From a virus: a stretch of DNA of 64,000 bases. The notes beneath the pieces were generated by a model, which was not told the origin of the DNA, ran no database searches, and was given only the letters and a program-made list of their open reading frames with translations. Shown here in pieces: positions 36,397 through 52,337 of the stretch (positions are counted from its first letter, which is position 1; every line of letters starts with the position of its first letter). The position numbers were made by a program, and so were the translations under genes. Location: the IMG/VR virus record IMGVR_UViG_3300022602_002120, positions 62,001 to 126,000 of that record; one strand, written 5' to 3'.

Positions 36397-37801
36397 ATCA
36401 AAATTTATGAGCGCAGCAGAAGAAATGAAAGACAAACTAGGTCCTAGTCTTTGCTTGGCTAAATGGCAACAGGTAAGCCTACACCTACCAACAGGACTTA
36501 ACAATAGCTGTTACCATCCCCCATTACATGAGATTGATGCGGCACCTTTAGTGTTTCATCCTAGTGCCTTACATAACACAGCATATAAGAAAGAACAGCG
36601 TAAGAAAATGCTAGAGGGCACTCGTCCTAAAGAGTGTAACTACTGCTGGACCATGGAAGATGCTGGACACTTAAGTGATCGTCACTATCGTAGTGGTGAA
36701 CCCTGGGCGGCAGAACATTATGACACAATTAAAGACCTACCCTGGGATGCTGACGTTACTCCTAGTTATGTAGAAGTAAACTTCAGTCACGGCTGTAATC
36801 TAGCTTGCTCTTACTGTAGCCCACAGTTTAGTACAGAATGGCAGAAAGATATTGATCGTTGGGGTGCTTATCCTACAAGCAAACCTCATAATGCGCCTGA
36901 ACACTTCCAAGGTCGACGCAAACCTATTCCAGTTAAAGATGATAATCCTTATGTAGATGCGTTTTGGTCTTGGTGGCCTGAACTGTATCCTAAACTAAAA
37001 CATTTCCGTATGACAGGTGGTGAACCTCTAATGGACAAGAACACGCATCGTGTGTTCGACTATATCCTAGCGGCACCTAAGAGCGACTTACACGTAGATG
37101 TTACAAGTAACTTTAGCGTAGAGCCAGAACTGTTTAACAAGTATATAGACAAAGTTAAGCAGTTATGTGAAGGCACACGCATTGAACACTTCATGCAGTA
37201 TGTAAGCCTTGACACTGGTATTCCAGAACATGCTAGTTATATTCGTCGTGGCTTAAATCCTAGTAGGGTAGTTGACTATACTACTCGTTTCTTAGAAGAA
37301 ATTCCAGGACGCAATAGCCTAACGTTTATTATTACCATGAACAATCTTAGCATTTTAGGCCTAAAACGCTTGTTAGAAGAAATCTTGTTTTTGCGTAAAC
37401 AATATAGTTCAACTTATCAACGTGTTTGGTTCGATACTCCTGTGCTACGTACACCTAGTTGGCAGAGTCTACAAATACTTCCAGAAAGCTACACTGTGAT
37501 ATTAGCTGATGTAGTCAAGTATATGAAACAGAATCGATTAGACGAAAACAGTGATCGTTTTGATGGTTTCAAAGACTATGAAATACAACGCATGGAACGT
37601 GACCTAGATTGGATGAAGAAAGGCAAGAAACTCAGCGACAAGTATCTACATGAACAACGTGCTGACTTTTACCGTTTCTTCAATGAATATGACAAACGTC
37701 GTGGTGCCACTACCAAGGATGCCCGTGATGAAACATTCTTAGATGTGTTTCCAGAAATGAAAGAATTTTGGATGGAGTGCAAATATCATGCCGAAAATTA
37801 A
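36389..37801 (+). CDS. Radical SAM protein with N-terminal twitch-type cysteines, copy 1
   Basis: A 470-residue radical SAM enzyme. The core motif C136-x3-C140-x2-C143 (HGCNLACSYC) would bind the SAM-cleaving 4Fe-4S cluster, and TGGEP (near residue 212) is the usual SAM-contact motif. Ahead of the core lie C22, C41, C83 and C86, with spacing close to the four cysteines of twitch auxiliary-cluster domains such as BtrN, but placed N-terminally. I recall NCBI naming such proteins twitch domain-containing radical SAM proteins. It belongs with the copy at 38845 to subgroup 1 (shared HEID/HQID and CxYCW..ED). Substrate unknown; glycan neighbours suggest sugar or peptide modification. Confidence 0.8.
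   Translation: MTKSKFMSAAEEMKDKLGPSLCLAKWQQVSLHLPTGLNNSCYHPPLHEIDAAPLVFHPSALHNTAYKKEQRKKMLEGTRPKECNYCWTMEDAGHLSDRHYRSGEPWAAEHYDTIKDLPWDADVTPSYVEVNFSHGCNLACSYCSPQFSTEWQKDIDRWGAYPTSKPHNAPEHFQGRRKPIPVKDDNPYVDAFWSWWPELYPKLKHFRMTGGEPLMDKNTHRVFDYILAAPKSDLHVDVTSNFSVEPELFNKYIDKVKQLCEGTRIEHFMQYVSLDTGIPEHASYIRRGLNPSRVVDYTTRFLEEIPGRNSLTFIITMNNLSILGLKRLLEEILFLRKQYSSTYQRVWFDTPVLRTPSWQSLQILPESYTVILADVVKYMKQNRLDENSDRFDGFKDYEIQRMERDLDWMKKGKKLSDKYLHEQRADFYRFFNEYDKRRGATTKDARDETFLDVFPEMKEFWMECKYHAEN
37788..37798 (+). repeat. 11-bp junction repeat ATGCCGAAAAT (second copy 38845-38855)
   Basis: The same eleven bases form the overlap of gene end and next gene start at both borders of the second TEK glycosyltransferase. 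Upstream genes end in Ala-Glu-Asn and downstream genes begin Met-Pro-Lys-Ile in both places. The repeat could be a scar of recombination or duplication of the gene pair. Confidence 0.5.
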
Positions 37802-38861
37802 TCTGCATACCTTTAATAATCTTCAAGATATAAAATTTTTTGATATTTGTTATAATGTCGCAAATATTGTGCCACACGATGAAATTCATGAGGTGCTCAG
37901 ATGTGATAATCTCAATTATCCTATACTTAATAAAGTAAAAATTATGCAAAATCTTACTCCTATTAGACAATACCTACGCCAAAGTACGAGTAATAAATTA
38001 ATTGTAATTGATTACTTAGAGGGGAATAACTCTATTATGTCGTGGCTAGGTCAGGAAAGAATTGCAGAATATGTAAGATCTAATCAATTGATTATTATAT
38101 CATCGGGGGAATTTGAAAATGGTATTTTTTTAAATTTAGATTTTTTTCTAGGACATATACACAGTACTTATAACCAAGCAATTGCATTAAATACATTTGA
38201 CAAAATTTTTAATCAACTTAATAAACCTTATAAATTTTTATGTTTAAATAAAGCAAAAAGACCTCACCGGGTAGAATTATTAGAATTATTAAAAAATTTA
38301 AATCTATTAGACACCGCACTTTGGAGTGCATTATATGATAATCAGACTATTCCGATGGAATACAACGACTATTTTAATGAGCGAAAGAAAGAAACTACCA
38401 TCAATCAAACTAACCACGATAATCCCTGGATAGATGGTCTTTTAGTTCCGGATCTATATATCGATACATATTTTTCTGTTGTCACTGAGACAAATTTTGA
38501 AATTCCAAGGTGCTATCGTACAGAAAAAATATATAAACCACTATTGATAGGACATCCATTTATTGCGGTGTCGGGATATCATTTTTATCAAGGGTTACAT
38601 AAGTTAGGGTTTAAAACTTTTGGTCATCTAATAGACGAGAGCTTTGATGATATTTTAAATAATAATGATCGATTAGTTAGAATAGCAAACACTATTAACA
38701 ATTTATGTAACAGCAATCTAGTAGAATTTTTAAAAGAAGCAAAACCTATATGTGAATATAATAGAAACTTATACTTTGAATTATTGGGGACAGATCCTTT
38801 AAGAAAATACAATTCTTTAATCAATTTTTTCAATGAACTAATAAATGCCGAAAATACATAA
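37788..38861 (+). CDS. Putative glycosyltransferase, TEK-motif family, copy 2
   Basis: A 357-residue protein, Asn/Ile/Leu-rich. The C-terminal block from about residue 242 is CYRTEKIYKPLLIGHPFIAV, then LHKLGFKTFGHLIDESFDDI, shared with the proteins at 35428 and 43353. Upstream of it is FSVVTETNFE, matching FTVTVESSVD of the copy at 43353, a likely substrate-site acid. The N-terminal half is divergent. Start and preceding stop share the string ATGCCGAAAAT, which also forms the start of the following radical SAM gene. Likely sugar transferase; family placement tentative. Confidence 0.45.
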   Translation: MPKINLHTFNNLQDIKFFDICYNVANIVPHDEIHEVLRCDNLNYPILNKVKIMQNLTPIRQYLRQSTSNKLIVIDYLEGNNSIMSWLGQERIAEYVRSNQLIIISSGEFENGIFLNLDFFLGHIHSTYNQAIALNTFDKIFNQLNKPYKFLCLNKAKRPHRVELLELLKNLNLLDTALWSALYDNQTIPMEYNDYFNERKKETTINQTNHDNPWIDGLLVPDLYIDTYFSVVTETNFEIPRCYRTEKIYKPLLIGHPFIAVSGYHFYQGLHKLGFKTFGHLIDESFDDILNNNDRLVRIANTINNLCNSNLVEFLKEAKPICEYNRNLYFELLGTDPLRKYNSLINFFNELINAENT

Positions 38862-40224
38862 CGAAACAGACGTACAATACAAACGCAGAGTAATTGACAT
38901 CAAGAGTGCTAGTTTCTGTGCGGCTAAATGGTATAATGCCACTATATGGTTAGGTAGCGGACAAACTACTAGTTGTCATCATCCCTTACCACATCAAATT
39001 GATGTTAACGCGGCCTTGATTAATCCTAGTGCTATTCATAATACACCACAAAAGAAAGAACAACGTCGCCAAATGCAGATAGGCGAGCGTCCTGGTGGTT
39101 GCGAATACTGCTGGAAGATAGAAGACATGTATAAAGACTCTGGGTTATTTAATGGAGTTGATGTACCTGTGCCAATCAGTGACCGTGTGTATAAAACAGT
39201 AATATATAGTGATGAGGATTTAGATCTTGCCTATAATACCCCCGCAGAACATGATGTCAACTTACAGACTCTCGAAATTGCTTTTGATCGCACTTGCCAG
39301 TTTGCCTGTAGCTACTGTAATCCTGCTTTCAGCACTAGCTGGGTACGTGACATTAAACAAAACGGACCTTATGTCAATCTTGTCAGTGATGGTAGGAATC
39401 ACTTTACCCACGTTCATGACAGTAGCCAATTATATAAGCCCACAGAAGTAAATCCCTATGTCGAAGCATTTTTTAAGTGGTGGGAATCAGATCTACACAA
39501 GACATTAAAAGAATTACGTATCACAGGTGGCGAGCCCCTGATGTCGGGTCACACTTGGAAATTAATCGATTGGTTCAGAGAGAATCGCGGTAAGAGCTCT
39601 ACCCGATTGGCTATTAACAGTAACCTAGGATTTGAACAAGATAAATTGGAGCGATTATTAGATGCTACAGAAGGTATTGAACTTGATTTGTACACCAGCA
39701 ATGAAAGCATTGGTAGACACGCAATTTATATACGTGATGGCCTGGATTGGAATCAATGGGCTAGCAATGTTAGTTATCTATTGGATAGTAAAAGACTGCG
39801 CGGCCTACACGTCATGTGTACCATCAATGCCCTATGCTTATTAAGCCTAACAGAATTCCTATGGTCAGTTGTTAAACTTAAACAGAAGTATGGCAAGGAT
39901 TCAATTAACTTCAGTCTAAACATCTTACGCTTTCCTAGCTTCCAAAGTCCACTAATCTTACCATTGGCTATGCGTCAAGAGTTTGCTAATGAATTGAGAA
40001 GATTTGGCGATGCAACCAATGAACAGCTTCATGAATATGAGTTCAACCAATTACAACGATTAATTGAATACTTAAACAATGTAGATAGTCCGCACAGTGG
40101 AGCATTGTCACGTGAAGTATTACAACGTGACTTTAAGCACTTTTATCAGCAATACGATGAACGCCGAGGTAAAGACTTTAAATATACATTTCCACAACTA
40201 GCAGAATGGTATGACACACTATGA
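38845..40224 (+). CDS. Radical SAM protein with N-terminal twitch-type cysteines, copy 2
   Basis: A 459-residue radical SAM enzyme. N-terminal auxiliary cysteines are C25, C44, C86 and C89; the core is C151-x3-C155-x2-C158 (TCQFACSYC), followed by AFSTSW as in copy 1 (QFSTEW). TGGEPL is present near residue 231. It shares with copy 1 the N-terminal string INPSAIHNTPQKKEQRR (compare HPSALHNTAYKKEQRK) and the C-terminal FYQQYDERRG (compare FFNEYDKRRG). Copies 1 and 2 are therefore a recent pair, each preceded by a TEK-motif transferase. Cytoplasmic. Substrate unknown. Confidence 0.8.
   Translation: MPKIHNETDVQYKRRVIDIKSASFCAAKWYNATIWLGSGQTTSCHHPLPHQIDVNAALINPSAIHNTPQKKEQRRQMQIGERPGGCEYCWKIEDMYKDSGLFNGVDVPVPISDRVYKTVIYSDEDLDLAYNTPAEHDVNLQTLEIAFDRTCQFACSYCNPAFSTSWVRDIKQNGPYVNLVSDGRNHFTHVHDSSQLYKPTEVNPYVEAFFKWWESDLHKTLKELRITGGEPLMSGHTWKLIDWFRENRGKSSTRLAINSNLGFEQDKLERLLDATEGIELDLYTSNESIGRHAIYIRDGLDWNQWASNVSYLLDSKRLRGLHVMCTINALCLLSLTEFLWSVVKLKQKYGKDSINFSLNILRFPSFQSPLILPLAMRQEFANELRRFGDATNEQLHEYEFNQLQRLIEYLNNVDSPHSGALSREVLQRDFKHFYQQYDERRGKDFKYTFPQLAEWYDTL
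39251..39451 (+). CDS. Possible nested two-TM ORF inside radical SAM copy 2 (weak)
   Basis: A 66-codon +1-frame ORF (open back to 39227). It has a hydrophobic stretch of about 24 residues beginning SKLLLIALASLPVATVILL, a short NKTD turn, and a second stretch (LMSILSVMVGITLPTFMTV), then a short polar tail. Host-frame valine codons before purines are all GTC here, which avoids +1 stops. However there is no visible Shine-Dalgarno, and the homologous region of radical SAM copy 4 gives a similarly hydrophobic +1 shadow, so this may be a by-product of the host sequence. Confidence 0.2.
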   Translation: MMSTYRLSKLLLIALASLPVATVILLSALAGYVTLNKTDLMSILSVMVGITLPTFMTVANYISPQK

Positions 40225-40886
40225 CAATATTAGCGTTTGGATGTTCAGTAACACACGGTGCAGAATTAGTGCATCCAAATCAGCACGAAGATAATGTCAA
40301 ATACAGCTATCCTAATTTAGTAGCCGAAACCTTAGGAGTTGAGTGTAAGAACTTAGCCGTATGTGGTGCCAGCAACGAAGATATTTTTCACAAAACACTC
40401 AATGTATTAAAAGTTACCAAACCTGATATAACCGCGGTTATTGTGGGATGGACTAGCGATGTCAGGGAATATTGGCGAGCAGATGGCAGGGAATGGTTTT
40501 TTATACCTAGTTGGTGTGCAACTAAGCAAATTGGCTCAGACCTAGAATACTTTAAAGATTATACTAGTAAAGATATTAACCTACACCCAAGGATATGTGC
40601 TGACAAAGAAGAATATTTAGAACCGTTAGCCGTAATGTACGACTATTTAATACGTTATAAATTTGATCAAGAAGAATACAAGTATAAGAAGTATAATTAT
40701 ATATCAAGCATTAGAGATTATTGTCAACTACACAGTATTAAATTAATTGAAACTTGTTGTTTAAATCCTACACCAGAAATAATGAATTTAGACGATATCG
40801 GCACTTGGCGCCAAGGATTGGGTCATCCTACAAAAACAGACCATGAACAAATAGCACAGCAGATACTATTAAAATATGAGCGATAA
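40221..40886 (+). CDS. SGNH/GDSL-hydrolase-like protein
   Basis: A 221-residue protein. Block I is ILAFGCSVTHGAEL with Ser in a G-C-S context; block III is NLAVCGASNEDIFHKTL; then AVIVGWTSDVREYW, where the WT motif recurs in several SGNH-like proteins of this operon. The C-terminal block is GLGHPTKTDHEQIAQQIL with His but no Asp three residues before it. It sits between radical SAM copies 2 and 3, overlapping them by four and eleven bases. A role in acyl removal or transfer on a glycan is inferred from the family; loss of the catalytic Asp leaves this open. Confidence 0.6.
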   Translation: MTILAFGCSVTHGAELVHPNQHEDNVKYSYPNLVAETLGVECKNLAVCGASNEDIFHKTLNVLKVTKPDITAVIVGWTSDVREYWRADGREWFFIPSWCATKQIGSDLEYFKDYTSKDINLHPRICADKEEYLEPLAVMYDYLIRYKFDQEEYKYKKYNYISSIRDYCQLHSIKLIETCCLNPTPEIMNLDDIGTWRQGLGHPTKTDHEQIAQQILLKYER

Positions 40887-42192
40887 ACAACAAGACGACT
40901 ACTATAAAAATCATCATTACTATACACGTAAACCTGTATATATCAGTGAAGACGACCTACGCACAGATCAGTTAGATCGGTTGACTAAAAGTGATGTATT
41001 TTGTATGATACCATGGATACATATTCATGCTTTTCCGGATGGCCGCGCTTATCCATGTTGTTTAGGTGACGACCGACATCCTGTTGGCAACTTTAAGCAA
41101 GACAGTATAGAAACTGTTTGGAATCAAGACGCATATAAAACCATGCGTAAGAACATGCTTGAAGAAACTCCCTGTAAAGAATGTAGTAAATGTTACGAAC
41201 AAGAAGACAGCGGATTTATGAGTATGCGTAACAGCACTAACAAAAATTTCGGGCATCATATCAACATTGTTGATCAAACACTAGCAGATGGAACATTCCC
41301 AGAATTTAAACTACGCTATTATGATGTGCGGTTTAGTAACCTATGTAACTTTACCTGCAGAACCTGTGGTGGTTGGTTTAGTTCAAGTTGGTACACTGAG
41401 GAAGAAGACCTATACGGCAAACGTAACTATCCCAAGATCATGTTTGCAGGTCGCACTGAATTAGACATGTGGGAACAGTTAGAACCACATATACCTTACT
41501 TAGAACAGGTATACTTTGCTGGCGGCGAACCCATGATGATGGAAGAGCATTATCGTATACTTAAAGAACTAGTTAAACGTGAAATGTTTGATGTTAAGCT
41601 AATCTATAACACAAACTTTAGTCGCTTAAACTTAAAAGATGATAATGTACTTGACTATTGGAAGCTGTTCAAGAATGTCAGTGTTGGTGCTAGTTTGGAT
41701 GCTATGGGTCCACGTGCTGAATATATTCGTAAAGGTACTAAATGGGATCAAATTGAACGCAATCGTGAACAGATGTTAGAAGTATGCCCAACTACAGACT
41801 TTTATGTAAGTAGTACAGTTAGTCTATACAATGTACATCACTTACCTGACTTTCATCGAGAGTGGGTCGATAAAGGATATATTAAACATCAAGATTGGAA
41901 TATTAATATCCTTCAAGGTCCTGATCGCGATCGTATTGATGTATTACCTAACCTACTAAAAGATCAAATACGCAATAAGATTGTTGACCATATTGAATGG
42001 TTGACTCCACATGATCATTTAAAACGTGCTGTCAGTGGCTACGAAGGCATAATTAACTTTATGTATCAAAACTCTAAAACACATTTACTAAACGAATTCT
42101 TTCGAGTCAACAACGTACATGATGCGTATCGTAAAGAATCATTTGAAGCTACATTCCCAGAATTACAAACATTGAGAACGTATGTTGCCTGA
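40876..42192 (+). CDS. Radical SAM protein with N-terminal twitch-type domain, copy 3
   Basis: A 438-residue radical SAM enzyme of subgroup 2. The N-terminal domain is a textbook SPASM/twitch-like segment: FCMIPWIHIHAFPDGRAYPC (C43, C61, C62), then HPVGNFKQDSIETVWNQDA and ETPCKECSKC (C100, C103, C106). The core is C157-x3-C161-x2-C164 (NLCNFTCRTCGG), followed by WFSSSW; FAGGEPMM is the SAM motif. In most SPASM proteins this segment follows the core; here it leads. Neighbouring copies overlap by about ten bases. Substrate unknown. Confidence 0.85.
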   Translation: MSDKQQDDYYKNHHYYTRKPVYISEDDLRTDQLDRLTKSDVFCMIPWIHIHAFPDGRAYPCCLGDDRHPVGNFKQDSIETVWNQDAYKTMRKNMLEETPCKECSKCYEQEDSGFMSMRNSTNKNFGHHINIVDQTLADGTFPEFKLRYYDVRFSNLCNFTCRTCGGWFSSSWYTEEEDLYGKRNYPKIMFAGRTELDMWEQLEPHIPYLEQVYFAGGEPMMMEEHYRILKELVKREMFDVKLIYNTNFSRLNLKDDNVLDYWKLFKNVSVGASLDAMGPRAEYIRKGTKWDQIERNREQMLEVCPTTDFYVSSTVSLYNVHHLPDFHREWVDKGYIKHQDWNINILQGPDRDRIDVLPNLLKDQIRNKIVDHIEWLTPHDHLKRAVSGYEGIINFMYQNSKTHLLNEFFRVNNVHDAYRKESFEATFPELQTLRTYVA

Positions 42193-43360
42193 AAAAATTT
42201 GTATGCTACCTTGGATTAGTATTGAGACTAGCCCAATTGGTACTGCTCGCCCTTGCTGTTTGGCTAAAGATGAAATCCCTGGGTATAATCTCAGAGAGCA
42301 TACTCTTGAAGAAATATATCACAGTAACTATATGCAAGATCTACGTCAAGAATTTTTAGATGGTAACAAACCTAGTACCTGTCAACGCTGTTGGGATGAA
42401 GAAGCTGCTGGCCGTACCAGCAAGCGCATGAACAGTCGCATTAGACTAAAGGAATACTATGACAACGTTGATTGGAATAATCTTAACCCTGATCAGTTAT
42501 GGTTTATTGACCTTAAGTTGGGCAATATCTGTAATCTTAAGTGCCGTATTTGTGGAAGTTGGTCAAGTAGTAAGTGGGCTAAAGAAGAGATTGACTACGT
42601 ACCAGGTATTAATCGTAAAGAACACCTTGCTTACAAGTTTCTCGCTGATGGTGCTTGGCCTAGAGAAAATCCTCAATTCTGGGATAACCTAAAAGCTCTA
42701 CTGCCTAACATTAAATACTTTGAATTCACAGGCGGCGAACCTTTCCTTATTCAACAGCATTTTGATCTATTACAATACGCTGTAGACAACGACTATGCTA
42801 AAAATATTGAAATACACTACAACACCAATGGAACGGTGTTTCCTGACAGCTATGAAATATGGAGTCATTTTAAACACGTTGAAGTAGCATTTAGTATTGA
42901 CAATACTGCTGAACGTTTTGAATACGAAAGGTACGGAGCAGACTGGGCAGAAGTAGAGCATAATTTATGTCGATTTTTTGAACTACGTAATAAAAAATTT
43001 AGTACACAATTATGTTTAACAGTTAATATACAAAATGTCTATTATCTGCCAGAGATGTGTAATTGGTTTGCAAACTTACCATTTGACCATGTATACTTTA
43101 ACATGTTGCACGATCCTTGGCACATGTGTATTAGTAAAATGACATTAGATGCACAGGAACTAGTTATAGATAAATTATCTAATAGTGTTATAGATCCTAA
43201 GTATCGTGCAGAAATTTTACGCATTGTTAAGTTTATTCGTAACGGTGAAGGCAGTGACGGTCGAGAGTTTGTAACTAAGATGAAATTAGCGGATGAATAT
43301 CGTAACCAAAGTTTTTTAACTACTCATACAGAAATTGCCAAGGCCATGGGATATGAATAA
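42182..43360 (+). CDS. Radical SAM protein with N-terminal twitch-type domain, copy 4
   Basis: A 392-residue radical SAM enzyme, the shortest of the five. N-terminal cysteines are C7, C25, C26, C67 and C70 (ICMLPWISIETSP, RPCCLAKDE, STCQRCWDEE). The core is C117-x3-C121-x2-C124 (NICNLKCRICG), then SWSSSKW; FTGGEPF is present. It starts directly with the twitch segment, without the 40-residue leader of copy 3. Adjacent to and overlapping copy 3 by eleven bases, so the two may act as a pair. Substrate unknown. Confidence 0.85.
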   Translation: MLPEKICMLPWISIETSPIGTARPCCLAKDEIPGYNLREHTLEEIYHSNYMQDLRQEFLDGNKPSTCQRCWDEEAAGRTSKRMNSRIRLKEYYDNVDWNNLNPDQLWFIDLKLGNICNLKCRICGSWSSSKWAKEEIDYVPGINRKEHLAYKFLADGAWPRENPQFWDNLKALLPNIKYFEFTGGEPFLIQQHFDLLQYAVDNDYAKNIEIHYNTNGTVFPDSYEIWSHFKHVEVAFSIDNTAERFEYERYGADWAEVEHNLCRFFELRNKKFSTQLCLTVNIQNVYYLPEMCNWFANLPFDHVYFNMLHDPWHMCISKMTLDAQELVIDKLSNSVIDPKYRAEILRIVKFIRNGEGSDGREFVTKMKLADEYRNQSFLTTHTEIAKAMGYE

Positions 43361-44369
43361 ACGCAAGTTAATACTCATTGGCTGGACTGATTTTAATAGT
43401 AGCTACATCAATTGGTACCTATCTGAATATTTTGATATCGAACCATACAACCTGAATAAAACTTATGCCAACGACTGTATATTTGTCATTTCTCGTAGTG
43501 AATATTGGCATGAACCAATGGTTGAAAAAATTTTAGAAAAAGGACATAAATTAATATTGGCTAATCAGTGGGAAGCTCAACCGTTTTTCCTAGCAGAACA
43601 ATTTACTCCGTATCTTGATAATATTTTGGTAATACTAGGTTGTAAAAACTCATTGGGATTGGGATGGAAAAATATTATAAATGTTCCAAATTGGTTTTGG
43701 TATAATGAAAGTTTATGGTATACATGTGAGTCTAAAATGAGTTATCACAAATACATACCTAATAGGTCTAATGGTAAATTATTTTTTATGCCTATTAATC
43801 GTGTTAAAGATTTTAGAACACGTATAGTTGATCAATTTAATGATGTGCTAGATCGAGCAATTTGGAGCTATGCACAACAGCATAACGGCGGGCAACATTT
43901 ACCTGTCGGGGATGTTAATCCTGTAGCCAGAATAGCATGGGATCGTCAATTTGAGGAATGGTGGTATAATGATTCATATTTTACCGTAACAGTAGAATCT
44001 TCTGTTGACACAGATCTAACAGCACCGTGTGAATTATTTGTCACAGAAAAAACATTTAAACCTATTGCGTTTCAACATCCGTTTTTAGTATGTGGGATGA
44101 AAGGAACCCTGAAATTTTTACATGATAATGGATTTGAGACATTTAATCATATATTTGATGAAAGTTATGATCAACTTGATTTTTTTGAAAACCGTCTAGA
44201 TAGCGTGCATAATAATATTAAAAATTTTGATACTACTAAGTATTTGGATCCGTTAACTAACGAAAAAATAAAACATAATTATGATAGATTTTATAATAGA
44301 GCAATAGTACTTAACGGTCTTAAAATGGATCTATTAGATCCATTATTGGAGTGGATTAATGCAAATTAA
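43353..44369 (+). CDS. Putative glycosyltransferase, TEK-motif family, copy 3
   Basis: A 338-residue protein. The frame is open back to a TTG at 43335, but the ATG at 43353 has an AAGG Shine-Dalgarno and gives the eight-base overlap usual in this operon, so I chose it. C-terminal block from about residue 228: FVTEKTFKPIAFQHPFLVCG, then LHDNGFETFNHIFDESYDQL, the clearest copy of the TEK motif. Before it lies SYFTVTVESSVDTDL. N-terminus KLILIGWTDFNSSYINWYLS looks like the first strand of a GT-B half. Probable sugar transferase; family assignment tentative. Confidence 0.5.
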   Translation: MNKRKLILIGWTDFNSSYINWYLSEYFDIEPYNLNKTYANDCIFVISRSEYWHEPMVEKILEKGHKLILANQWEAQPFFLAEQFTPYLDNILVILGCKNSLGLGWKNIINVPNWFWYNESLWYTCESKMSYHKYIPNRSNGKLFFMPINRVKDFRTRIVDQFNDVLDRAIWSYAQQHNGGQHLPVGDVNPVARIAWDRQFEEWWYNDSYFTVTVESSVDTDLTAPCELFVTEKTFKPIAFQHPFLVCGMKGTLKFLHDNGFETFNHIFDESYDQLDFFENRLDSVHNNIKNFDTTKYLDPLTNEKIKHNYDRFYNRAIVLNGLKMDLLDPLLEWINAN

Positions 44370-45003
44370 TATACCATCACTGACATCTAATAGAGGCCAA
44401 CATGTTGATGAATTTGGAATTGTTTGGAATTTGAATTCCGATGGGTTTAGAACTATAGAATTTGATCAGATAGATTTTAATAAACCACGTGCGCTTGCAA
44501 TGGGATGTAGTCACACAAAAGGTAGCGGAGTCAAACAACACGAATCATGGCCCGAAGTACTTAAAGAAAAAATTAATATAGATCAGATCATTAATTTGGG
44601 ACAGTGGGGAGCAAGCAGTGATTATGTTATACGAATTTTACCTGATTGTTTAGAACAATTCAAGCCAGATGTTGTTTTTGTATTTTGGCCAGACTATGTC
44701 AGATTTGAGATTCTTAAAGACGGGATATACAGACAAATTATACCAACGGATAAAGATAGAATTTTATACATAGAATCACATAGTGACGAATTACTGAAAG
44801 AAAATTATGCTAATAATCTTAAAATAGCCGCTGAATTATGTAGAGATCGTGCTGTTAAGTTAATTGGTATTTCGTGGGATGATTTAATACCGGTAATGGA
44901 TCGAGCAGATAAATGGAATAAAGGCGCAGATAATTTACACTTTGATAGCGTCTGGCAACATGGAGTAGCTGAAACTTTTAAGAGATTGTATGAATCAACC
45001 TAA
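44359..45003 (+). CDS. SGNH/GDSL-hydrolase-like protein with intact DxxH
   Basis: A 214-residue protein. Block I is ALAMGCSHTKGSGV, preceded by NSDGFRTIEFDQI; block III is INLGQWGASSDYVIRIL; then VVFVFWPDYVRFEIL; the catalytic end is GADNLHFDSVWQHGVAETF, keeping Asp three residues before His. It is a close paralogue of the 261-residue protein at 51552 (GFRSCEFD, GCSHTVGVGV, GGAGAD, LWPSLYRFE, GAHFGVDWHQ). Those with intact DxxH are the best candidates for real esterase or acyltransferase activity. Lies between a TEK transferase and radical SAM copy 5. Confidence 0.65.
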   Translation: MQINIPSLTSNRGQHVDEFGIVWNLNSDGFRTIEFDQIDFNKPRALAMGCSHTKGSGVKQHESWPEVLKEKINIDQIINLGQWGASSDYVIRILPDCLEQFKPDVVFVFWPDYVRFEILKDGIYRQIIPTDKDRILYIESHSDELLKENYANNLKIAAELCRDRAVKLIGISWDDLIPVMDRADKWNKGADNLHFDSVWQHGVAETFKRLYEST

Positions 45004-46306
45004 ACCTAGCACGTTATGTATGGCACCTTGGGTACACACATATCTAAGCCCACAAACAGAAAGACGTATGTGCTGTGCTAGTCGCGAGCCTGCGCAGAAC
45101 TTTGAACAGTATATAGATACTAAGTCGGGTACGGGCAAGTATATTCCCATTACCCTAGAAGAACATTGGAACAGCCCTCACATGAAAGATGTGCGAGTGC
45201 GTATGCTGGCTGGTGAAACACTACCAGAGTGCGAAGTATGTAATGACAAGTTACTGAACACAAGCGTTTACCGTAGTTATTTTGATAGTATGTTTGGACA
45301 TAAGTATTCACAAGTACTAGAGAATACTCAACCAGACGGAACTACTACACTTCGTCCTGTTAGTTGGGACTATCGCTTTAGTAACTTATGTAATTTCAAA
45401 TGCCGTATGTGTGGAGATATGTTATCTAGTGCCTGGGAGTCAGAACAGCGCACTCACAATATGATCAATTGGAGTAATCCAAAGAATAATTGGATGCGCC
45501 CCGAAATCAAAGAACAAATAACCGAGTTTCAAGACAGTCAAATTGAACAAGAGTTTGCAAATGCTGTAGAACAACATCAAGTAGAAGAAGTATATTGGGT
45601 AGGCGGAGAGCCCTTAATGTACGAACAACATTGGCGCTACATGAAGCGCATTGTTGAACTAGGAGATGGCAAAAATGTATACGCAAGGTATAACACTAAC
45701 CTTAGCCGTGTCGACTATCGCGGTGTCAATCTTTACAGGGACATTTTATCTGGGCTACGTGACTGGCAAATCTGCGCGAGTCTCGACGGAACAGGAGCAA
45801 TTGGAGAGTACATTAGAACAGGCCTTGGATACAGTCACTGGCTTACAAACTTCCGTCAAGGAGTTAAAATCGCAAGTCACCGACGCCAAATGCGAATTGA
45901 CTTTACTCTCACGCTCCCAGGAATGTTTGAAGTCATCAACATTAGCCGCCTTGCTCAAGAAATGGGTGTAGACATACTTGCCAAAGTAGTCTTTAGTTTT
46001 AGTCCCGATATTATTATGAGTCCTTTAGCACTACCTAGGGAGTTGTTAGATCCTTGGGTAGATGAACTATTAGTTGGCCTTGACTCTGAGGGTTACCCTC
46101 AAAATAGCCCACTAAAGGACATACTGATTCAGCTTAAAACTCGCCCAACCTTTCAAGAACAGTGGCCCGATACTTGGAAAGAAAGTCTTGCTCAAGGTAA
46201 ACGGCGTGTGTTACAATTAGAGCATATCCGTGGTGACGATTACACTATGGCTGACATATTATCGACGAGAGCAGATGTTTATGAGTGGTACAAATCAATT
46301 AATTGA
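44990..46306 (+). CDS. Radical SAM protein with N-terminal twitch-type domain, copy 5
   Basis: A 438-residue radical SAM enzyme of subgroup 2. N-terminal cysteines are C10, C28, C29, C81 and C84 (LCMAPWVHTYLSP, RMCCASRE, PECEVCNDK). The core is C134-x3-C138-x2-C141 (NLCNFKCRMCGDM), then LSSAWESE; WVGGEPLMYEQ is the SAM motif. From about 45700 to 45960 its codons change: GTC, CTC, GAC, TAC and TCC replace the usual GTA, CTA and GAT. That stretch also encodes a +1-frame membrane/coiled-coil ORF, so selection on two frames would explain the shift. Substrate unknown. Confidence 0.85.
   Translation: MNQPKPSTLCMAPWVHTYLSPQTERRMCCASREPAQNFEQYIDTKSGTGKYIPITLEEHWNSPHMKDVRVRMLAGETLPECEVCNDKLLNTSVYRSYFDSMFGHKYSQVLENTQPDGTTTLRPVSWDYRFSNLCNFKCRMCGDMLSSAWESEQRTHNMINWSNPKNNWMRPEIKEQITEFQDSQIEQEFANAVEQHQVEEVYWVGGEPLMYEQHWRYMKRIVELGDGKNVYARYNTNLSRVDYRGVNLYRDILSGLRDWQICASLDGTGAIGEYIRTGLGYSHWLTNFRQGVKIASHRRQMRIDFTLTLPGMFEVINISRLAQEMGVDILAKVVFSFSPDIIMSPLALPRELLDPWVDELLVGLDSEGYPQNSPLKDILIQLKTRPTFQEQWPDTWKESLAQGKRRVLQLEHIRGDDYTMADILSTRADVYEWYKSIN
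45661..45665 (+). promoter_or_regulatory. Shine-Dalgarno AGGAG for nested ORF
   Basis: AGGAG lies nine bases before the ATG at 45675 (AGGAGatggcaaaaATG), inside the radical SAM copy 5 gene. The ATG at 45666 touches the motif directly and would not use it, so the start at 45675 is preferred for the nested spanin-like ORF. Confidence 0.55.
45675..45971 (+). CDS. Nested i-spanin-like protein overprinted in radical SAM copy 5
   Basis: A 98-codon ORF in the +1 frame inside the radical SAM gene. Residues about 6-29 (ITLTLAVSTIAVSIFTGTFY and on) form one membrane segment. From residue 36 a coiled coil runs with perfect 4-3 spacing at 36, 40, 43, 47, 50, 54, 57, 61, 64, 68, 71, 75, 78, 82 and 85; thirteen of these fifteen positions are V, L or A, the other two Gln, and the remaining positions are rich in E, Q, K, S and T. 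Two Cys (73, 84) follow. Single TM plus periplasmic coiled coil at about 100 residues is the build of phage Rz-type inner-membrane spanins. Own Shine-Dalgarno at 45661. Caveats: positive charges lie after, not before, the TM, so N-in/C-out topology is not guaranteed, and no outer-membrane spanin partner was found. Confidence 0.6.
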   Translation: MYTQGITLTLAVSTIAVSIFTGTFYLGYVTGKSARVSTEQEQLESTLEQALDTVTGLQTSVKELKSQVTDAKCELTLLSRSQECLKSSTLAALLKKWV

Positions 46307-47402
46307 TACAATAGAAATTGTCCTACGTGGGCAGGACAGCCTCTTATCTGTTTATATTGATGTATTTGATAACAGTTTGAGTCATAAATGGTTAGTATCT
46401 CTCAACACTCTACTAAAAAATAATTATCATTTAGAAAAGAATTATTGTTTCTTTGGATTTGCTGATGGTCCTCGTGATGGTAAATTAATTGTTGAGCAAA
46501 TTAATTGTAGTATACAAGCAATCAATGAAGCCAATATCGGATACAAGATTGATGATTATTTTACTTTAGAAAATAGTATAGTTTCTGGTAAAATAATTCC
46601 TGAGCACTTATATCCACTAGGACAACGGCCTGCTAATTTACCAGGCGAAGTTAACCATGATCATTTTAACAATCTGCATCGTTATTTTGAGGATCTACAG
46701 GGAGTAAGTGGTCGCATGACTGAATATTATAATCTTGCAGATTCCACTGTACGATGGCATATCAGACAATTAAATCTATTGTGTCACGAATTTGAAAGTT
46801 GGGCATTAAGTAATAGAAAAAAATATACAGCACCAGACTGGGTACGCCCTAGTCAACTTATGTGTTGGTTAACAGCACCGAGATTTATCCTTACTGAAGA
46901 TGATTATGATCTATTTGGAGTCGAAACAATGAATCGTCCTCTTGGCGGAGTATATGTGGGTGTTAACAAAGCTGTAGGCAAACATCATTGGGAAGTCTTT
47001 GTAGACGAAGCAGGATATAATCCCAATATGATAATTGAAAATTTAACCACAACTACTTTGCGTAGTCAACTTGAGGCAGCTGGCGATTTTGATATAGAGT
47101 GGGGAAATAACCCTGGTGAATATGAATGGCAAAAGAAACATCTGGCAGATTTTAGACAATGGCTAATTAATAATAATTTTGATCCAGCAGATAAAACATT
47201 AACCATTGGGCATCCGCAAGTAGGACAAGTTAATCTAATTCGCAGTTTTGGTACTGATAATTATAAAGATATTTGGGCAAAGTTAGAGCAACATTTAGAT
47301 GTATTCAGTATTAGAACCAAAGAAGAATATGCTGAATATGATTATCAATGGAGCGATAATGATTTTGCCGCTAGACAAGTTGCTATTATAGGTAATCAAT
47401 GA
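46281..47402 (+). CDS. Hypothetical protein of the glycan operon
   Basis: A 373-residue protein, family not recognised. The frame is open back to 46230, but the ATG at 46281 gives a 26-base overlap in keeping with this operon. Seen: a KNYCFFGFADGPRDGKLIVE segment, LPGEVNHDHFNNLHRYFEDL with several His and acidic residues, STVRWHIRQLNLLCHEFESW, and RPLGGVYVGVNKAVGKHHWE. The His/Asp/Glu-rich centre could be a metal site, but that is a guess. It lies between radical SAM copy 5 and the SGNH array, so a function on the same substrate is plausible. Confidence 0.55.
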   Translation: MSGTNQLIDTIEIVLRGQDSLLSVYIDVFDNSLSHKWLVSLNTLLKNNYHLEKNYCFFGFADGPRDGKLIVEQINCSIQAINEANIGYKIDDYFTLENSIVSGKIIPEHLYPLGQRPANLPGEVNHDHFNNLHRYFEDLQGVSGRMTEYYNLADSTVRWHIRQLNLLCHEFESWALSNRKKYTAPDWVRPSQLMCWLTAPRFILTEDDYDLFGVETMNRPLGGVYVGVNKAVGKHHWEVFVDEAGYNPNMIIENLTTTTLRSQLEAAGDFDIEWGNNPGEYEWQKKHLADFRQWLINNNFDPADKTLTIGHPQVGQVNLIRSFGTDNYKDIWAKLEQHLDVFSIRTKEEYAEYDYQWSDNDFAARQVAIIGNQ

Positions 47403-47959
47403 TGATTATTGCTGGCGGGGATAGTATGGTATGGGGTAGTGAGTTAGCTGATAGTCCTCATGGCGGCCACGATGGATACAGTTCTAATACTTTTGCAGCA
47501 TTATTGGCTAAAGATAACTATGTTTGTGCTGCATATCCCGGTATAGGTAATAAAGAAATAGTTCAACGAATAATAGAAGCATTAACGTTAACAGATCCAA
47601 CTGGCGTCCTAGTCTGCTGGACTTGGCCGAGCCGAGATAATAAAATTCACAGCGATGAAGAAATAATACATCTTCAAGAATATTTAGAACATTATAATAT
47701 TCCTTATTTGTTTACCTGTGTAGATAACTGTATAGTTACAGATAATCCTAAAATTAATTGGGATCACTGGTACTTATTTCCGCCAGGCATAGAATTGTAC
47801 GAAACTCTACAACCAAGAGGATTTTATCAATGGGCTGTAGAAAATAAGTACAATATAGGCCCAGAACATCATCCGTTAGAGCAAGCACACGTTGATGCGG
47901 CCAATTTAATGAGGAATAAATTCAATGAACTGGTTAAAAAATCTAATCAATCGAGTTAA
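47399..47959 (+). CDS. SGNH-hydrolase-like protein, type A copy 1
   Basis: A 186-residue protein. Block I is MIIAGGDSMVWGSELAD; then NYVCAAYPGIGNKEIVQRII and GVLVCWTWPSR; later NIPYLFTCVDNCIV and GFYQWAVENKY; the end is HHPLEQAHVDAANLM, without the canonical Asp before His. Each block has a match in the 263-residue protein at 48652 (GGDSFTYGSELSD, ICAAHPGNSNSAI, VTWSFPGR, IPYLFLGVDECIL, GFYTWARDNK, HPREPAHIEAANL), which makes a type A pair separated by a type B gene. Start overlaps the previous stop (ATGA). Confidence 0.6.
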   Translation: MMIIAGGDSMVWGSELADSPHGGHDGYSSNTFAALLAKDNYVCAAYPGIGNKEIVQRIIEALTLTDPTGVLVCWTWPSRDNKIHSDEEIIHLQEYLEHYNIPYLFTCVDNCIVTDNPKINWDHWYLFPPGIELYETLQPRGFYQWAVENKYNIGPEHHPLEQAHVDAANLMRNKFNELVKKSNQSS

Positions 47960-48026
47960 ACTAGAAATAGCATACCGCAAGAAGCTTAAAGAGCTTCGCA
48001 AAAGAGATCCTTTTATTTACAAATAA
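47925..48026 (+). CDS. 33-residue basic small protein ending DPFIYK
   Basis: A 33-codon ORF between two SGNH genes. It begins MNWLKNLINRVKLEIAYRKK and ends in LRKRDPFIYK: one amphipathic basic helix plus a conserved-looking tail. I recall similar short phage proteins with a (K)KLKE(L/I)RKRDPFIY ending, but cannot verify. It overlaps the upstream gene by 35 bases and its TAA shares one base with the next ATG (TAATG), typical of coupled translation. Function unknown; membrane-surface association would suit the helix. Confidence 0.6.
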   Translation: MNWLKNLINRVKLEIAYRKKLKELRKRDPFIYK

Positions 48027-48664
48027 TGCGTTTACTAACTGTTGGTGATAGTTTTACCTACGGGGAAGAACTAAGCGACCTGACGCTCGCTTGGCCATTT
48101 CAGTTATCTGCTACATTAGGATACGATGTAACCAATTTGGCAAAACCCGGTAGCGGCAACACACGTATGGTTAGATATGCTGTTGAAAATATAACCAAGT
48201 ATGACATGATTATTGTTGCGTGGACGCATTGGGCTAGGACTGAAATTGCAGACGAGTGCGGCTTTTATGATATTTGGCCAGGTTGTAGTCCAATACCACA
48301 CAAAGAACATACCCAATGGCGTAGTGATCTGATAGAATATTATTCTCGACACTATAATGATGAATATCTATATAGGCAATATCTATTAAACATAATTTTA
48401 TTACAAAATTATTTTAGTAAAAATAATAAGAAATATCTAATGTTAGATGCCTTTGCTAATCACCAATATCGTGGAAGGAAAACAAATGAGGATCTAATAG
48501 GACAAATTGATACTGGATATTTCGTTGGCTGGCCAGATGAATCAATGATGGAATGGACCTATGGATGCAATCAAGGTCCAATTGGACATTTTCTAGAGTT
48601 AGGGCATCAACGTGTAGCGGAAAAGATATATAATCATATGGTGAAATTAAAATGGGCTGTTTAA
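48026..48664 (+). CDS. SGNH-hydrolase-like protein, type B copy 1
   Basis: A 212-residue protein. Block I is LLTVGDSFTYGEELSD; block III NLAKPGSGNTRMVRYAVE; then MIIVAWTHWARTEI; YYSRHYNDEYLYRQYLLNII; QIDTGYFVGWP; the end is GHFLELGHQRVAEKIYNHM. Every block has its equal in the 217-residue protein at 49440 (GDSYTYGSEL, SSSNDRIFRLAIE, VICAWTEVSRLDLW, YYARHYDDRHS, QIDTDNYLGWPE, GHPLELGHKRIAEKYYEHI). The Asp of the DxxH motif is missing. Cytoplasmic, no signal peptide. Possible acyl-group enzyme or, if inactive, a glycan-binding relative. Confidence 0.6.
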   Translation: MRLLTVGDSFTYGEELSDLTLAWPFQLSATLGYDVTNLAKPGSGNTRMVRYAVENITKYDMIIVAWTHWARTEIADECGFYDIWPGCSPIPHKEHTQWRSDLIEYYSRHYNDEYLYRQYLLNIILLQNYFSKNNKKYLMLDAFANHQYRGRKTNEDLIGQIDTGYFVGWPDESMMEWTYGCNQGPIGHFLELGHQRVAEKIYNHMVKLKWAV

Positions 48665-49443
48665 TTGCAGGTGGCGATAGTTTTACCTATGGCAGTGAAT
48701 TGTCTGATTGCTTTGTATTGAGTGAATCTTCTACGCCCAAGGAAGTGCATAGTCAAAGTACCTATACAGCGTTAATTGCTAAAGAACTAGATTTAGAATA
48801 TATCTGTGCGGCCCATCCTGGTAATAGCAATAGTGCTATTAGACGAAGTGTAATGAACGCATGTGAAAGTAACACTAACATAGAACAAGTGATAGTTACT
48901 TGGAGCTTCCCTGGCAGGTACGAATTTAATTTCAACAACTCATGGGAACAAATAAATCCATGGAGTGTTGCTGATGATGCAGAAAAAACTATAAAAAAAG
49001 ATTTTCACATAGATAATCCTATAGTGTTTCAACATCATTTGGATAAACTAAAACGTGAACAAGCATTAGGTATAAGTGACTTTGCTAGAATATTTTATAG
49101 CAAGATAGGTGGATTTGAATATTGGGAAGTTTATAACAGTCTACTAGACATTGTATTACTTGAACAATATTTAAAAATAAAAGATATTCCCTACTTGTTC
49201 TTAGGAGTAGATGAGTGTATACTAATAAATGTTAATAAACATGAACATGATGTGAATATAAAGACTCTATACAACCAAATTGATATGACTAAATGGTATT
49301 GGTTTCCGAAACATAAAGGATTTTATACCTGGGCAAGAGATAATAAGTTTCCTTTTGCCACAACACATCCGCGCGAACCAGCACACATTGAAGCGGCAAA
49401 TTTAGTATATGAACATCTGAGATATATTGGTAATATTAGGTGA
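48652..49443 (+). CDS. SGNH-hydrolase-like protein, type A copy 2
   Basis: A 263-residue protein, paralogue of the one at 47399 but with an insert of about 60 residues after residue 100 (NPWSVADDAEKTIKKDFHID, then GISDFARIFYSKIGGFEYWE). Block I LIAGGDSFTYGSELSD, block III AHPGNSNSAIRRSVM, then VTWSFPGRYEF. The C-terminal His block is FATTHPREPAHIEAANL, lacking the Asp. It overlaps the upstream gene by 13 bases and its stop forms a GTGA overlap with the next gene. Confidence 0.6.
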   Translation: MGCLIAGGDSFTYGSELSDCFVLSESSTPKEVHSQSTYTALIAKELDLEYICAAHPGNSNSAIRRSVMNACESNTNIEQVIVTWSFPGRYEFNFNNSWEQINPWSVADDAEKTIKKDFHIDNPIVFQHHLDKLKREQALGISDFARIFYSKIGGFEYWEVYNSLLDIVLLEQYLKIKDIPYLFLGVDECILINVNKHEHDVNIKTLYNQIDMTKWYWFPKHKGFYTWARDNKFPFATTHPREPAHIEAANLVYEHLRYIGNIR

Positions 49444-50093
49444 TTAATAATATACTAGCCATTGGCGATAGTTATACCTATGGATCGGAACTTGAAAATC
49501 CAGGGCGTGATTCTTGGCCGATGCAATTGGCAATTAAGTTAAACAGCTATGTAACTAACTTAGGTATGCCTAGTAGTAGTAATGATAGAATCTTCAGATT
49601 GGCAATTGAACACACACTTGAATTACAATATGATTTAGTAATTTGCGCCTGGACTGAAGTGTCTAGACTAGATTTATGGGCTAATGACCGGGAGTTTCAA
49701 GTAACATCAGCTAGTGTTGATTATCATGCTAAACAGTATCCTTGGATTAAAGAATATTATGCTAGACACTATGATGACAGACATAGTACTAAAACTTGGT
49801 TAACCAGAGTGTTAGCACTACAAGAATATTTTAAAAATAAAGGTCAGCGATACATCTTTGCTAACATGCAACCTAACAATGAGTATCGCGAACATTATAC
49901 AAAATTAGGCCTAACTAAATTTATAGACCAAATTGATACTGATAATTATTTAGGTTGGCCGGAAGGCGAAGGTATGCACGCTTGGATAGGTGATGCAGAA
50001 ATTGGGTCATGTGGCCATCCACTTGAGCTTGGACATAAACGTATAGCGGAAAAGTACTATGAACATATTAGGAATATCGGCTGGCTTTCATGA
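49440..50093 (+). CDS. SGNH-hydrolase-like protein, type B copy 2
   Basis: A 217-residue protein starting at a GTG that shares four bases with the upstream stop (GTGA). Block I ILAIGDSYTYGSELENP, block III GMPSSSNDRIFRLAIEH, WT motif in VICAWTEVSRLDLW, end GSCGHPLELGHKRIAEKYY. Closely related to the type B copy at 48026; no DxxH Asp. It overlaps the carbamoyltransferase gene by 35 bases. The four genes from 47399 to here form an A-B-A-B array. Confidence 0.6.
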   Translation: MINNILAIGDSYTYGSELENPGRDSWPMQLAIKLNSYVTNLGMPSSSNDRIFRLAIEHTLELQYDLVICAWTEVSRLDLWANDREFQVTSASVDYHAKQYPWIKEYYARHYDDRHSTKTWLTRVLALQEYFKNKGQRYIFANMQPNNEYREHYTKLGLTKFIDQIDTDNYLGWPEGEGMHAWIGDAEIGSCGHPLELGHKRIAEKYYEHIRNIGWLS

Positions 50094-51555
50094 TGCCGCT
50101 GTTACATTAATCGACGAACAAGGCAAGATCTTGTTCGCAGGACATGCTGAACGTTACAGCAAGATTAAACATGACAGTGTATTAAATGTCCCTTTGATCA
50201 GAGATGCGTTGCGATATGGTAGTATAGATCAGATTGCCTACTATGAACGTCCATGGGTTAAAAAGACTCGTCAACTATATGCAGGTCAATGGAGTGAACT
50301 TAAAACTCCGTGGACTGTTGCAGGTATATTAAAAGCTCAATTACCCAAGTTACATTTACATAAATTACCAATTAAGTCGTATAATCATCACTTATCACAT
50401 GCGGCGGCAGGATTTCAAACAAGCTCATTTACAGATGCCACTGTAGTGGTTATTGATGCTATCGGTGAGTGGGATACTATTAGTATTTGGCATGCGTATT
50501 TTGATGACCACGGCAACGCTAAGTATCAAAAACTTTGGGGACAACAATATCCACATAGTATTGGACTAATGTATTCAGCATTTACCAAGTATGTGGGATT
50601 AAAACCCATGGATGAAGAATACATTTTAATGGGCATGGCTGGTTGGGGTAAACAGATCAGATGGGATGAAATAGAACAGCTTAAAGATAGTATATTAGGT
50701 GATGAAGGTAATTTTACATTCAAACATAACTTCCATCTAGGATTACCTGGTAAGTTACCTGTAGATTGGTCTGATGAAAACATAGCATTTGCAGCACAGT
50801 ATATAGCAGAAGATTTAATTGCCAGCGTAATGATGAAAGCAAGTAAATTAGGCTATAGTGAAAATTTAGTATACTGTGGCGGTGTAGCACTTAATTGTAG
50901 TGCGAATAGAATATTAGGGGAATATTATGATAACATTTGGATTATGCCTAATCCTGGCGATGCTGGGTCTAGCCTTGGCGCGGCTGCAATGGCTTTGGGC
51001 AGAAGGTTGGTTTGGAAAGATGCTTTCCTTGGCTTTAACATTCCTGGTCGTTATCCTGTTAAAGATATCATTTCCGAGTTAACCACAAATAAAATTTGTG
51101 GCGTGGCGAGCGGGCGGGCTGAGTTTGGCCCGCGAGCCCTTGGTAACCGTAGTTTATTAGCGGACCCTAGAGGTCCAGACATTAAGGATCGAGTAAATGA
51201 AATCAAACGTAGACAAAAGTTTAGACCTTTTGCACCTGTTATACTTGAGGAACTGGTACACGAATATTTCGATATGCCTCCTGGTTGGGATCGTAGCCCT
51301 TATATGCAGGTCGTGGCTCGTTGCCTGCATCCTAACCAGTTTCCTGCTATTCTACATGTTGATGGTACATCTCGCGTGCAGACAGTACCAAAAGATGGCA
51401 GTGGAATCAGACAACTCTTAGAACAATGGTATACTTGGACAGGATGTCCTATGCTGCTTAACACCAGCTTAAATGTCAGAGGCGAACCAATGGTTAATAA
51501 TCGTAAAGATGCAGATCGGTTTGAAAGACTATATGGCATAAAGGTTATGTCGTGA
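50059..51555 (+). CDS. O-carbamoyltransferase of the NodU/TobZ/CmcH family
   Basis: A 498-residue enzyme, somewhat shorter than the usual 550-600. N-terminus ILGISAGFHDAAVTLIDEQG; metal site YNHHLSHAAAGFQTS (H110, H111, H114) and VVIDAIGEWDT (D133); middle CGGVALNCSANRI and PNPGDAGSSLGAAAMALG; C-terminal domain ASGRAEFGPRALGNRSLLAD, FRPFAPVI and LNTSLNVRGEP. This family transfers carbamoyl from carbamoyl phosphate, through carbamoyl-AMP, to a hydroxyl on a sugar, antibiotic or Nod factor. A relative in viral metagenomes was reported to carbamoylate 5-hydroxymethylcytosine, so DNA is an alternative target. Neighbours favour a glycan. A nested +1 ORF lies at 51197. Confidence 0.88.
   Translation: MNILGISAGFHDAAVTLIDEQGKILFAGHAERYSKIKHDSVLNVPLIRDALRYGSIDQIAYYERPWVKKTRQLYAGQWSELKTPWTVAGILKAQLPKLHLHKLPIKSYNHHLSHAAAGFQTSSFTDATVVVIDAIGEWDTISIWHAYFDDHGNAKYQKLWGQQYPHSIGLMYSAFTKYVGLKPMDEEYILMGMAGWGKQIRWDEIEQLKDSILGDEGNFTFKHNFHLGLPGKLPVDWSDENIAFAAQYIAEDLIASVMMKASKLGYSENLVYCGGVALNCSANRILGEYYDNIWIMPNPGDAGSSLGAAAMALGRRLVWKDAFLGFNIPGRYPVKDIISELTTNKICGVASGRAEFGPRALGNRSLLADPRGPDIKDRVNEIKRRQKFRPFAPVILEELVHEYFDMPPGWDRSPYMQVVARCLHPNQFPAILHVDGTSRVQTVPKDGSGIRQLLEQWYTWTGCPMLLNTSLNVRGEPMVNNRKDADRFERLYGIKVMS
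51197..51421 (+). CDS. Possible nested two-TM ORF inside the carbamoyltransferase gene
   Basis: A 74-codon +1-frame ORF. It has a charged N-terminus (MKSNVDKSLDLLH), two hydrophobic stretches (ISICLLVGIVALIC, then WLVACILTSFLLFYMLMVHL) separated by Arg-Ser, and a polar C-terminal tail (RQYQKMAVESDNS). AAGGA at 51184-51188 lies eight bases before the ATG. Host-frame codons here include GAG, GTC and GTG where the phage usually prefers GAA and GTA. The first stretch is short for a membrane helix and hydrophobic +1 shadows are common in this genome, so this is only a candidate. Confidence 0.3.
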   Translation: MKSNVDKSLDLLHLLYLRNWYTNISICLLVGIVALICRSWLVACILTSFLLFYMLMVHLACRQYQKMAVESDNS

Positions 51556-52337
51556 AAAACTATTGGGAATTAGGAGCAACATTAGATTTAGGAACCTATC
51601 CCCGTAATCAAGAGTTATCGTTTAGCCTAAGTGATCTAGACAATGAAGAACGTTTTAATTCTTTGCCGCCTGGCAATTGGTCTAAGGATAGTTTTACCTA
51701 CAAGTATAATAGCTGCGGATTTCGTAGCTGTGAATTTGATCTCGACGGAATAAATCCTGTAATACTTACATTAGGTTGTAGTCATACAGTAGGTGTGGGT
51801 GTGCCACAGCACAATAATTGGCCTGAACAATTTGGTAGTAGATATTTTCCTGAACATAAGGTATATAATGCTGGTCTGGGGGGTGCGGGGGCAGATACTA
51901 TTGCACGATTAGCAATTAACCTAATTCCTATTATTAAACCTAGTATAGTTGCAGTCTTATGGCCAAGTTTATATCGGTTTGAAACATATGAAAATGGTGC
52001 TGTGTTTAACGGCGCTTGGACTATGGAACAAGACAATCTACAGTACGAGGACAACACAGCATACAATAATCAGACTAAAAATAAAACAATTTTAGAGTTA
52101 CTACAGCAGGTTTATCAATTTAAACTGTTAAGTATAGATTGGGATGACACTGTACAAAAAGTTTACAATACAATTTCTTGGACTAAAGGCCGTGACGGTG
52201 CACACTTTGGTGTAGATTGGCATCAACAGATTGCTTATGATTTTAATTTACAATATTGTAATCCTGATGACTTTGTGTTAAAATATACAAATCCAAAAGT
52301 CTACTGGGACAAATACAAGGATAGGAAAATTAAATGA
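51552..52337 (+). CDS. SGNH/GDSL-hydrolase-like protein with intact DxxH
   Basis: A 261-residue protein with a GTG start overlapping the carbamoyltransferase stop (GTGA). After an 85-residue N-terminal part ending YNSCGFRSCEFDLDG comes block I LTLGCSHTVGVGVPQHNNWP, then VYNAGLGGAGADTIARLAI and AVLWPSLYRFETYE. The catalytic end is GRDGAHFGVDWHQQIAYDF, with Asp three residues before His. Paralogue of the 214-residue protein at 44359. Adjacent to the carbamoyltransferase and to an APS-kinase-like gene, so it may edit the same glycan. Confidence 0.65.
   Translation: MKNYWELGATLDLGTYPRNQELSFSLSDLDNEERFNSLPPGNWSKDSFTYKYNSCGFRSCEFDLDGINPVILTLGCSHTVGVGVPQHNNWPEQFGSRYFPEHKVYNAGLGGAGADTIARLAINLIPIIKPSIVAVLWPSLYRFETYENGAVFNGAWTMEQDNLQYEDNTAYNNQTKNKTILELLQQVYQFKLLSIDWDDTVQKVYNTISWTKGRDGAHFGVDWHQQIAYDFNLQYCNPDDFVLKYTNPKVYWDKYKDRKIK

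Follow-up and report, generated by a model that had tools for sequence, protein, structure and literature searches.

Both overprinted genes in general and lysis genes embedded in other genes have long been familiar; lambda Rz1 and phiX174 E are overprinted phage lysis genes. In lambda, a +1-frame gene lies wholly inside another, and Rz is a lysis protein composed of a transmembrane (TM) segment and a coiled coil. The locus described here, a +1-frame ORF wholly inside a radical SAM gene, resembles lambda in the embedding and in the TM-plus-coil architecture; however, lambda embeds the lipoprotein Rz1 in its partner Rz, whereas here the TM-plus-coil product is embedded in an enzyme gene and the phage has a separate spanin pair.

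Overprinted virus genes have been reviewed (PMC8227390). Like them, the present ORF would encode a novel protein in a second reading frame of a gene that is older, is lineage-restricted and is under dual-coding constraint; it differs in being a fully nested sense-frame gene of ~300 nt in large phages, whose genomes are not obviously short of space. The predicted product shares the architecture of FtsB/FtsL (TM plus heptad coil), and it has a weak profile match to cytoplasmic ZapB (E 0.00075 to 0.001, under the curated cut-offs); however, it has no significant membership in these families, and it would have arisen by overprinting, not by descent. Among open-access papers, none was found that describes a radical SAM gene with a conserved TM-plus-coil gene fully nested in it. 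Gene callers largely ignore fully nested sense-strand genes, and comparative proof is rare for nested genes in large double-stranded DNA phages. Such proof is present here, along with internal negative controls in the form of lineages with a broken frame and a sister-gene ORF that failed. We consider it probable, on sequence evidence, that 45675-45971 is a real gene, overprinted on a radical SAM gene in a large lineage of phages, and that its product spans the inner membrane once and oligomerises through its coil, serving as a scaffold or effector and not as a spanin.

Layout of the nested frame

The window is the whole 64,000-nucleotide stretch that was analysed; it covers G000:C1:62001-126000 in an IMG/VR record of an uncultured virus, 188.8 kb in length. 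The features of the locus are as follows; nested residues are numbered from ATG 45666.

44990-46306, plus strand: host gene, twitch-domain radical SAM protein of 438 aa (NF033640, E 2.7e-86; PF04055, E 1e-6)
45661-45665, plus strand: Shine-Dalgarno-like AGGAG, from the sequence, nine bases 5′ of ATG 45675
45666-45668, plus strand: alternative in-frame ATG, directly abutting AGGAG; ACG in some open-frame relatives
45675-45971, plus strand: nested +1-frame gene of 98 aa, predicted single-pass membrane segment and coiled coil (stop avoidance, synonymous constraint, nested-frame residue selection); stop codon at 45969-45971
45690-45764, plus strand: predicted TM helix codons, about residues 9-33, from hydropathy; the Gly30 codon is strongly selected (wobble G, z 19.9)
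45780-45929, plus strand: predicted heptad coiled-coil codons, residues 39-88, from residue selection and one continuous AlphaFold2 helix

The host protein passed the curated cut-off of NF033640 (290 bits vs 170), and pattern matching found at least 600 relatives of it in IMG/VR. Its gene is overlapped at the 3′ end by the next gene, from 46230 or 46260 onward. The window at ~36200-51600 forms one cluster with at least four twitch-domain radical SAM copies, several SGNH-hydrolase-like copies and a carbamoyltransferase-like gene; tail-fibre genes lie upstream of this cluster.

The first-pass annotation had reported a +1-frame ORF inside the radical SAM gene with AGGAG nine bases before its ATG, and this ORF was found at 45675-45971. 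ATG 45675 is the likely start because AGGAG lies nine bases before it but directly abuts ATG 45666, which from its position appears the less likely start. GGAG or GGGG occupied the AGGAG site in 86% of open-frame relatives and 50% of broken-frame relatives. A frameshift fusion from the radical SAM N-terminus was considered and rejected: both in the window and in most family members, the +1 frame is closed just one codon 5′ of 45666. Because the frame is usually closed within a few codons upstream, there is little room for such a fusion, and an independent start is most likely. Ribosomes would start internally at ATG 45675 on the radical SAM mRNA, from the ORF's own Shine-Dalgarno sequence.

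The claimed coil of seven heptads, with V, L or A at 13 of 15 core positions, matched the residues exactly (V39, Q43, L46, L50, A53, V57, L60, V64, L67, V71, A74, L78, L81, Q85 and L88).

Selection on the nested frame

To estimate how often the nested frame would be open by chance, the radical SAM protein was held fixed and synonymous codons were resampled from the codon usage of the window. The probability of an open frame was ~7e-7, and the frame was open in 0 of 3000 resamples. Among 680 alternative-frame stretches (183 genes, five alternative frames) the nested ORF ranked first, with log10 P -5.94. No other open alternative frame of this 189-kb genome is as unlikely. The second and third entries of the ranking are probably mis-assigned primary ORFs. 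Improbably long +1 open stretches were also seen in minus-strand genes at G000:148159-148456 and 140775-141135 (log10 P -4.77 and -4.61). In the host frame, mean log codon quality over the nested region was -1.26, and none of the other 277 blocks of 100 codons was as poor (mean -0.93, s.d. 0.08, minimum -1.24).

Relatives of the host gene were taken from viral contigs and bacterial MAG contigs, and the codon usage of the individual contig gave the number of stops to be expected. Of 83 non-identical homologues, most had 0-1 stops in the +1 frame of the region, the ORF's own stop counted, vs ~5-9 expected; stops in the +2 frame and outside the nested region were near the chance rate. The core was open in 83 of 107 homologues (>60% identity), vs 1.2 expected by chance, and in these 83 no core stop was observed where 345 were expected. 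A few of the open rows may be open by chance, since their open-frame probability was 0.05-0.13 and they lack the heptad. Stops in the +1 frame of close relatives had been named as evidence against a gene; in these relatives the frame was kept open.

The sister radical SAM copy at 42182-43360 (plus strand) holds a TM-like +1 ORF, 42459-42692, with log10 P -4.58. It was rejected as a second nested gene: almost every relative has the frame broken, the number of stops is close to that expected, and the ORF is probably due to chance. Its failure in the same stop test indicates that the method tells chance shadows apart. Frame-specific stop-avoidance screens over metagenomic phage families could, these results suggest, expose more hidden genes.

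Reduced synonymous variation over the ORF in radical SAM homologues had been named beforehand as a test, and it was observed. In 30 independent open-frame pairs there were 644 synonymous differences vs 933 expected (ratio 0.69, Z -12.7), whereas seven broken-frame pairs had 229 vs 223 expected (Z +0.6). The dip in open-frame pairs was centred on the nested ORF. Another dip, at the 3′ end of the host gene, falls where the next gene overlaps it, and a weaker dip near 45269-45305 was seen in broken-frame pairs too.

Each wobble base of the host frame falls on the second position of a nested codon, which largely sets the hydropathy of the nested protein. This arrangement gives an unusually clean view of a structured membrane/coil protein written onto an unchanged enzyme. 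In open-frame rows, wobble T (hydrophobic) was enriched at nested residues 46, 50, 57, 60, 64, 67 and 71 (z 5.5 to 15.8) and wobble A at charged or polar residues 51, 52 and 66; these enrichments were missing at most of the same columns in broken-frame rows. Shared ancestry inflates the z-scores of single columns (mean chi outside the overlap was 17.8 in open-frame rows), so that the contrast between open and broken rows weighs more than the values. The pairwise test with its broken-frame control is less affected by phylogenetic non-independence. When the heptad register was taken from the window and kept fixed, the mean z of the contrast was 3.2 for the 30 rows with an open frame, 83% of them above 2, and -0.1 for the 24 with a broken frame; the latter set is a cleaner split than an earlier one of 26, some of which were short forms of the ORF that end near residue 75. 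TM hydrophobicity was above the null in both groups (mean z 1.7 in open vs 1.3 in broken rows), and is therefore supportive but unspecific.

Stop avoidance, synonymous constraint and selection on nested residues together strongly support the dual-coding selection that had been proposed. In these sequence comparisons, we regard coding-level selection, the heptad core and lineage-specific presence as established. It is very unlikely that the open frame is a by-product of radical SAM codon choice, whether through translation speed, an RNA element or chance, with no second protein. Codon usage does differ among genes, and TM-like hydrophobicity also occurs in frame-broken relatives; however, the constraint is limited to one frame and to open-frame lineages and is centred on the ORF, T is favoured at the nested second codon position with heptad spacing, and neither an RNA element nor an effect of codon speed would shun stops in the +1 frame alone.

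Topology of the product and the spanin question

AlphaFold2 modelled the nested protein as one continuous helix over residues 3-97 (mean pLDDT 76, pTM 0.31). This single-helix model fits the TM-plus-coil reading and proves little; a fold search with it gave no match. On average, family members have 0.08 K/R and 0.96 D/E in the flank N-terminal to the TM, vs 1.54 K/R and 0.54 D/E in the C-terminal flank, and a basic residue precedes the TM in only 6% of members. G34-K/R35, directly after the TM, is imposed by the host Trp-Gln-Ile codons. Judged from its codons, K/R35 is forced by the host yet would be a real charge of the protein. From the flanking charges and the positive-inside rule, the coil is predicted to be cytoplasmic (N-out/C-in), the opposite of an i-spanin. 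The product would be inserted as a single-pass inner-membrane protein with its N-terminus outside and its C-terminus in the cytoplasm, and the 50-residue heptad helix would form an oligomer through the coiled coil.

The first-pass annotation had suggested an Rz-type spanin; this reading was not supported. The record has a lysis cassette of its own:

G000:180327-182323 (= L098:16327-18323), minus strand: holin-like gene, second lipoprotein-like gene, Rz1-like o-spanin and Rz-like i-spanin

The holin-like gene matched phrog_3427 (E 1.4e-7). The Rz1-like gene, whose product is a lipoprotein with an LLGC lipobox, matched phrog_456 (E 1.1e-5) and adjoins the Rz-like i-spanin gene at G000 181542-181811. 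The latter matched phrog_2536 (E 3.8e-5), and its product apparently has two hydrophobic segments. Homologues of the spanin pair were found in four other ORF-bearing phages (L003, L010, L044 and L051) and in five ORF-lacking phages (L043, L056, L059, L066 and L070); the other 11 records searched gave no match, and these may be incomplete or have other spanins.

Against Rz-like PHROGs, phrog_214 was matched by 7 of 60 nested-family members with a best E of 0.0086, and phrog_8821 with E 0.06. Generic controls equalled or beat these values: E. coli FtsB reached E 0.0034 and an invented TM-plus-coil sequence E 4e-6. Profile comparison of the nested protein with the phage's own i-spanin revealed no similarity, and a search of a named-phage collection for relatives of the nested protein found none. 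The nested alignment is too weakly conserved to serve as a profile against viral contigs. The +2 frame, the one other sense frame across the ORF, has no room for an o-spanin partner, because stops occur in it at the chance rate.

The spanin was thus rejected as the main reading in view of the spanin pair of this phage and of other ORF-bearing phages, the lack of likeness to its own i-spanin, the charge pattern and the control matches; the nested protein is most likely not a spanin. A narrower version, in which the ORF encodes a second or accessory Rz-type i-spanin with a periplasmic coil and an o-spanin partner encoded elsewhere, appears quite unlikely. The single N-terminal TM and coiled coil in ~100 aa and the weak matches to several Rz-like PHROGs are compatible with it, as are the cysteines common in the nested family near residues 76, 84 and 87, since disulfides are typical of spanins (PMC6139136, also our source for spanin gene architectures). 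However, this phage and others with the nested ORF have canonical i- and o-spanins, FtsB and the invented sequence match the Rz profiles equally well or better, the own i-spanin gave no profile match, the positive-inside rule places the coil in the cytoplasm, and the nested gene lies outside the lysis cassette.

Control of lysis timing or of the holin, antiholin-like and exerted from the cytoplasmic side of the membrane, is likewise unlikely. Unlinked to the cassette and without homology, the nested ORF is variable in presence, and the spanin pair is found both with and without it; on the other side, the product is a small single-TM protein in a phage with a holin-like gene, and overprinted lysis genes such as lambda Rz1 and phiX174 E are known.

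An ordinary, non-nested TM-plus-coil gene of 78 aa was seen at G000:140373-140609 (minus strand), without a significant PHROGs match.

Origin, loss and possible roles

Remoter radical SAM homologues (43-51% identity) have stops in the nested frame. In the tree, the open state is spread over the whole group, with at least three changes of state and most simply seven. We read this pattern as a single early origin with repeated loss, several gains being the alternative. Broken-frame rows had 52 core stops vs 87.5 expected; such a deficit could fit recent loss, and the null may somewhat overstate stops. We lean, with modest confidence, towards a lineage-specific gene born by overprinting in diverse large phages and lost several times. 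Its product would be a coiled-coil protein anchored in the membrane and facing the cytoplasm, with a new function and with a hydropathy pattern written by the host wobbles.

The biological role is a guess. As an overprinted membrane protein, the product might be a membrane scaffold or effector in infection, host takeover or exclusion. Alternatively, it might anchor the surrounding radical SAM, SGNH-hydrolase-like and carbamoyltransferase-like modification enzymes. SGNH-hydrolase genes were found near the locus in 41 of 68 open-frame vs 1 of 18 broken-frame cases, a comparison confounded by phylogeny, with too few independent pairs.

The nested ORF occurs on contigs up to ~330 kb. Many broken homologues (e.g. 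L048, L056, L059, L066, L070 and L078) share a stop site at nested residue 59-60 and keep the TM half intact; these forms could be a truncated version still in use or a decaying remnant. The C-terminal lengths of the nested ORF fall at ~72, 96-98 and 101-104 aa, and are apparently clustered by lineage (e.g. L017, L021, L029, L035, L041 and L047).
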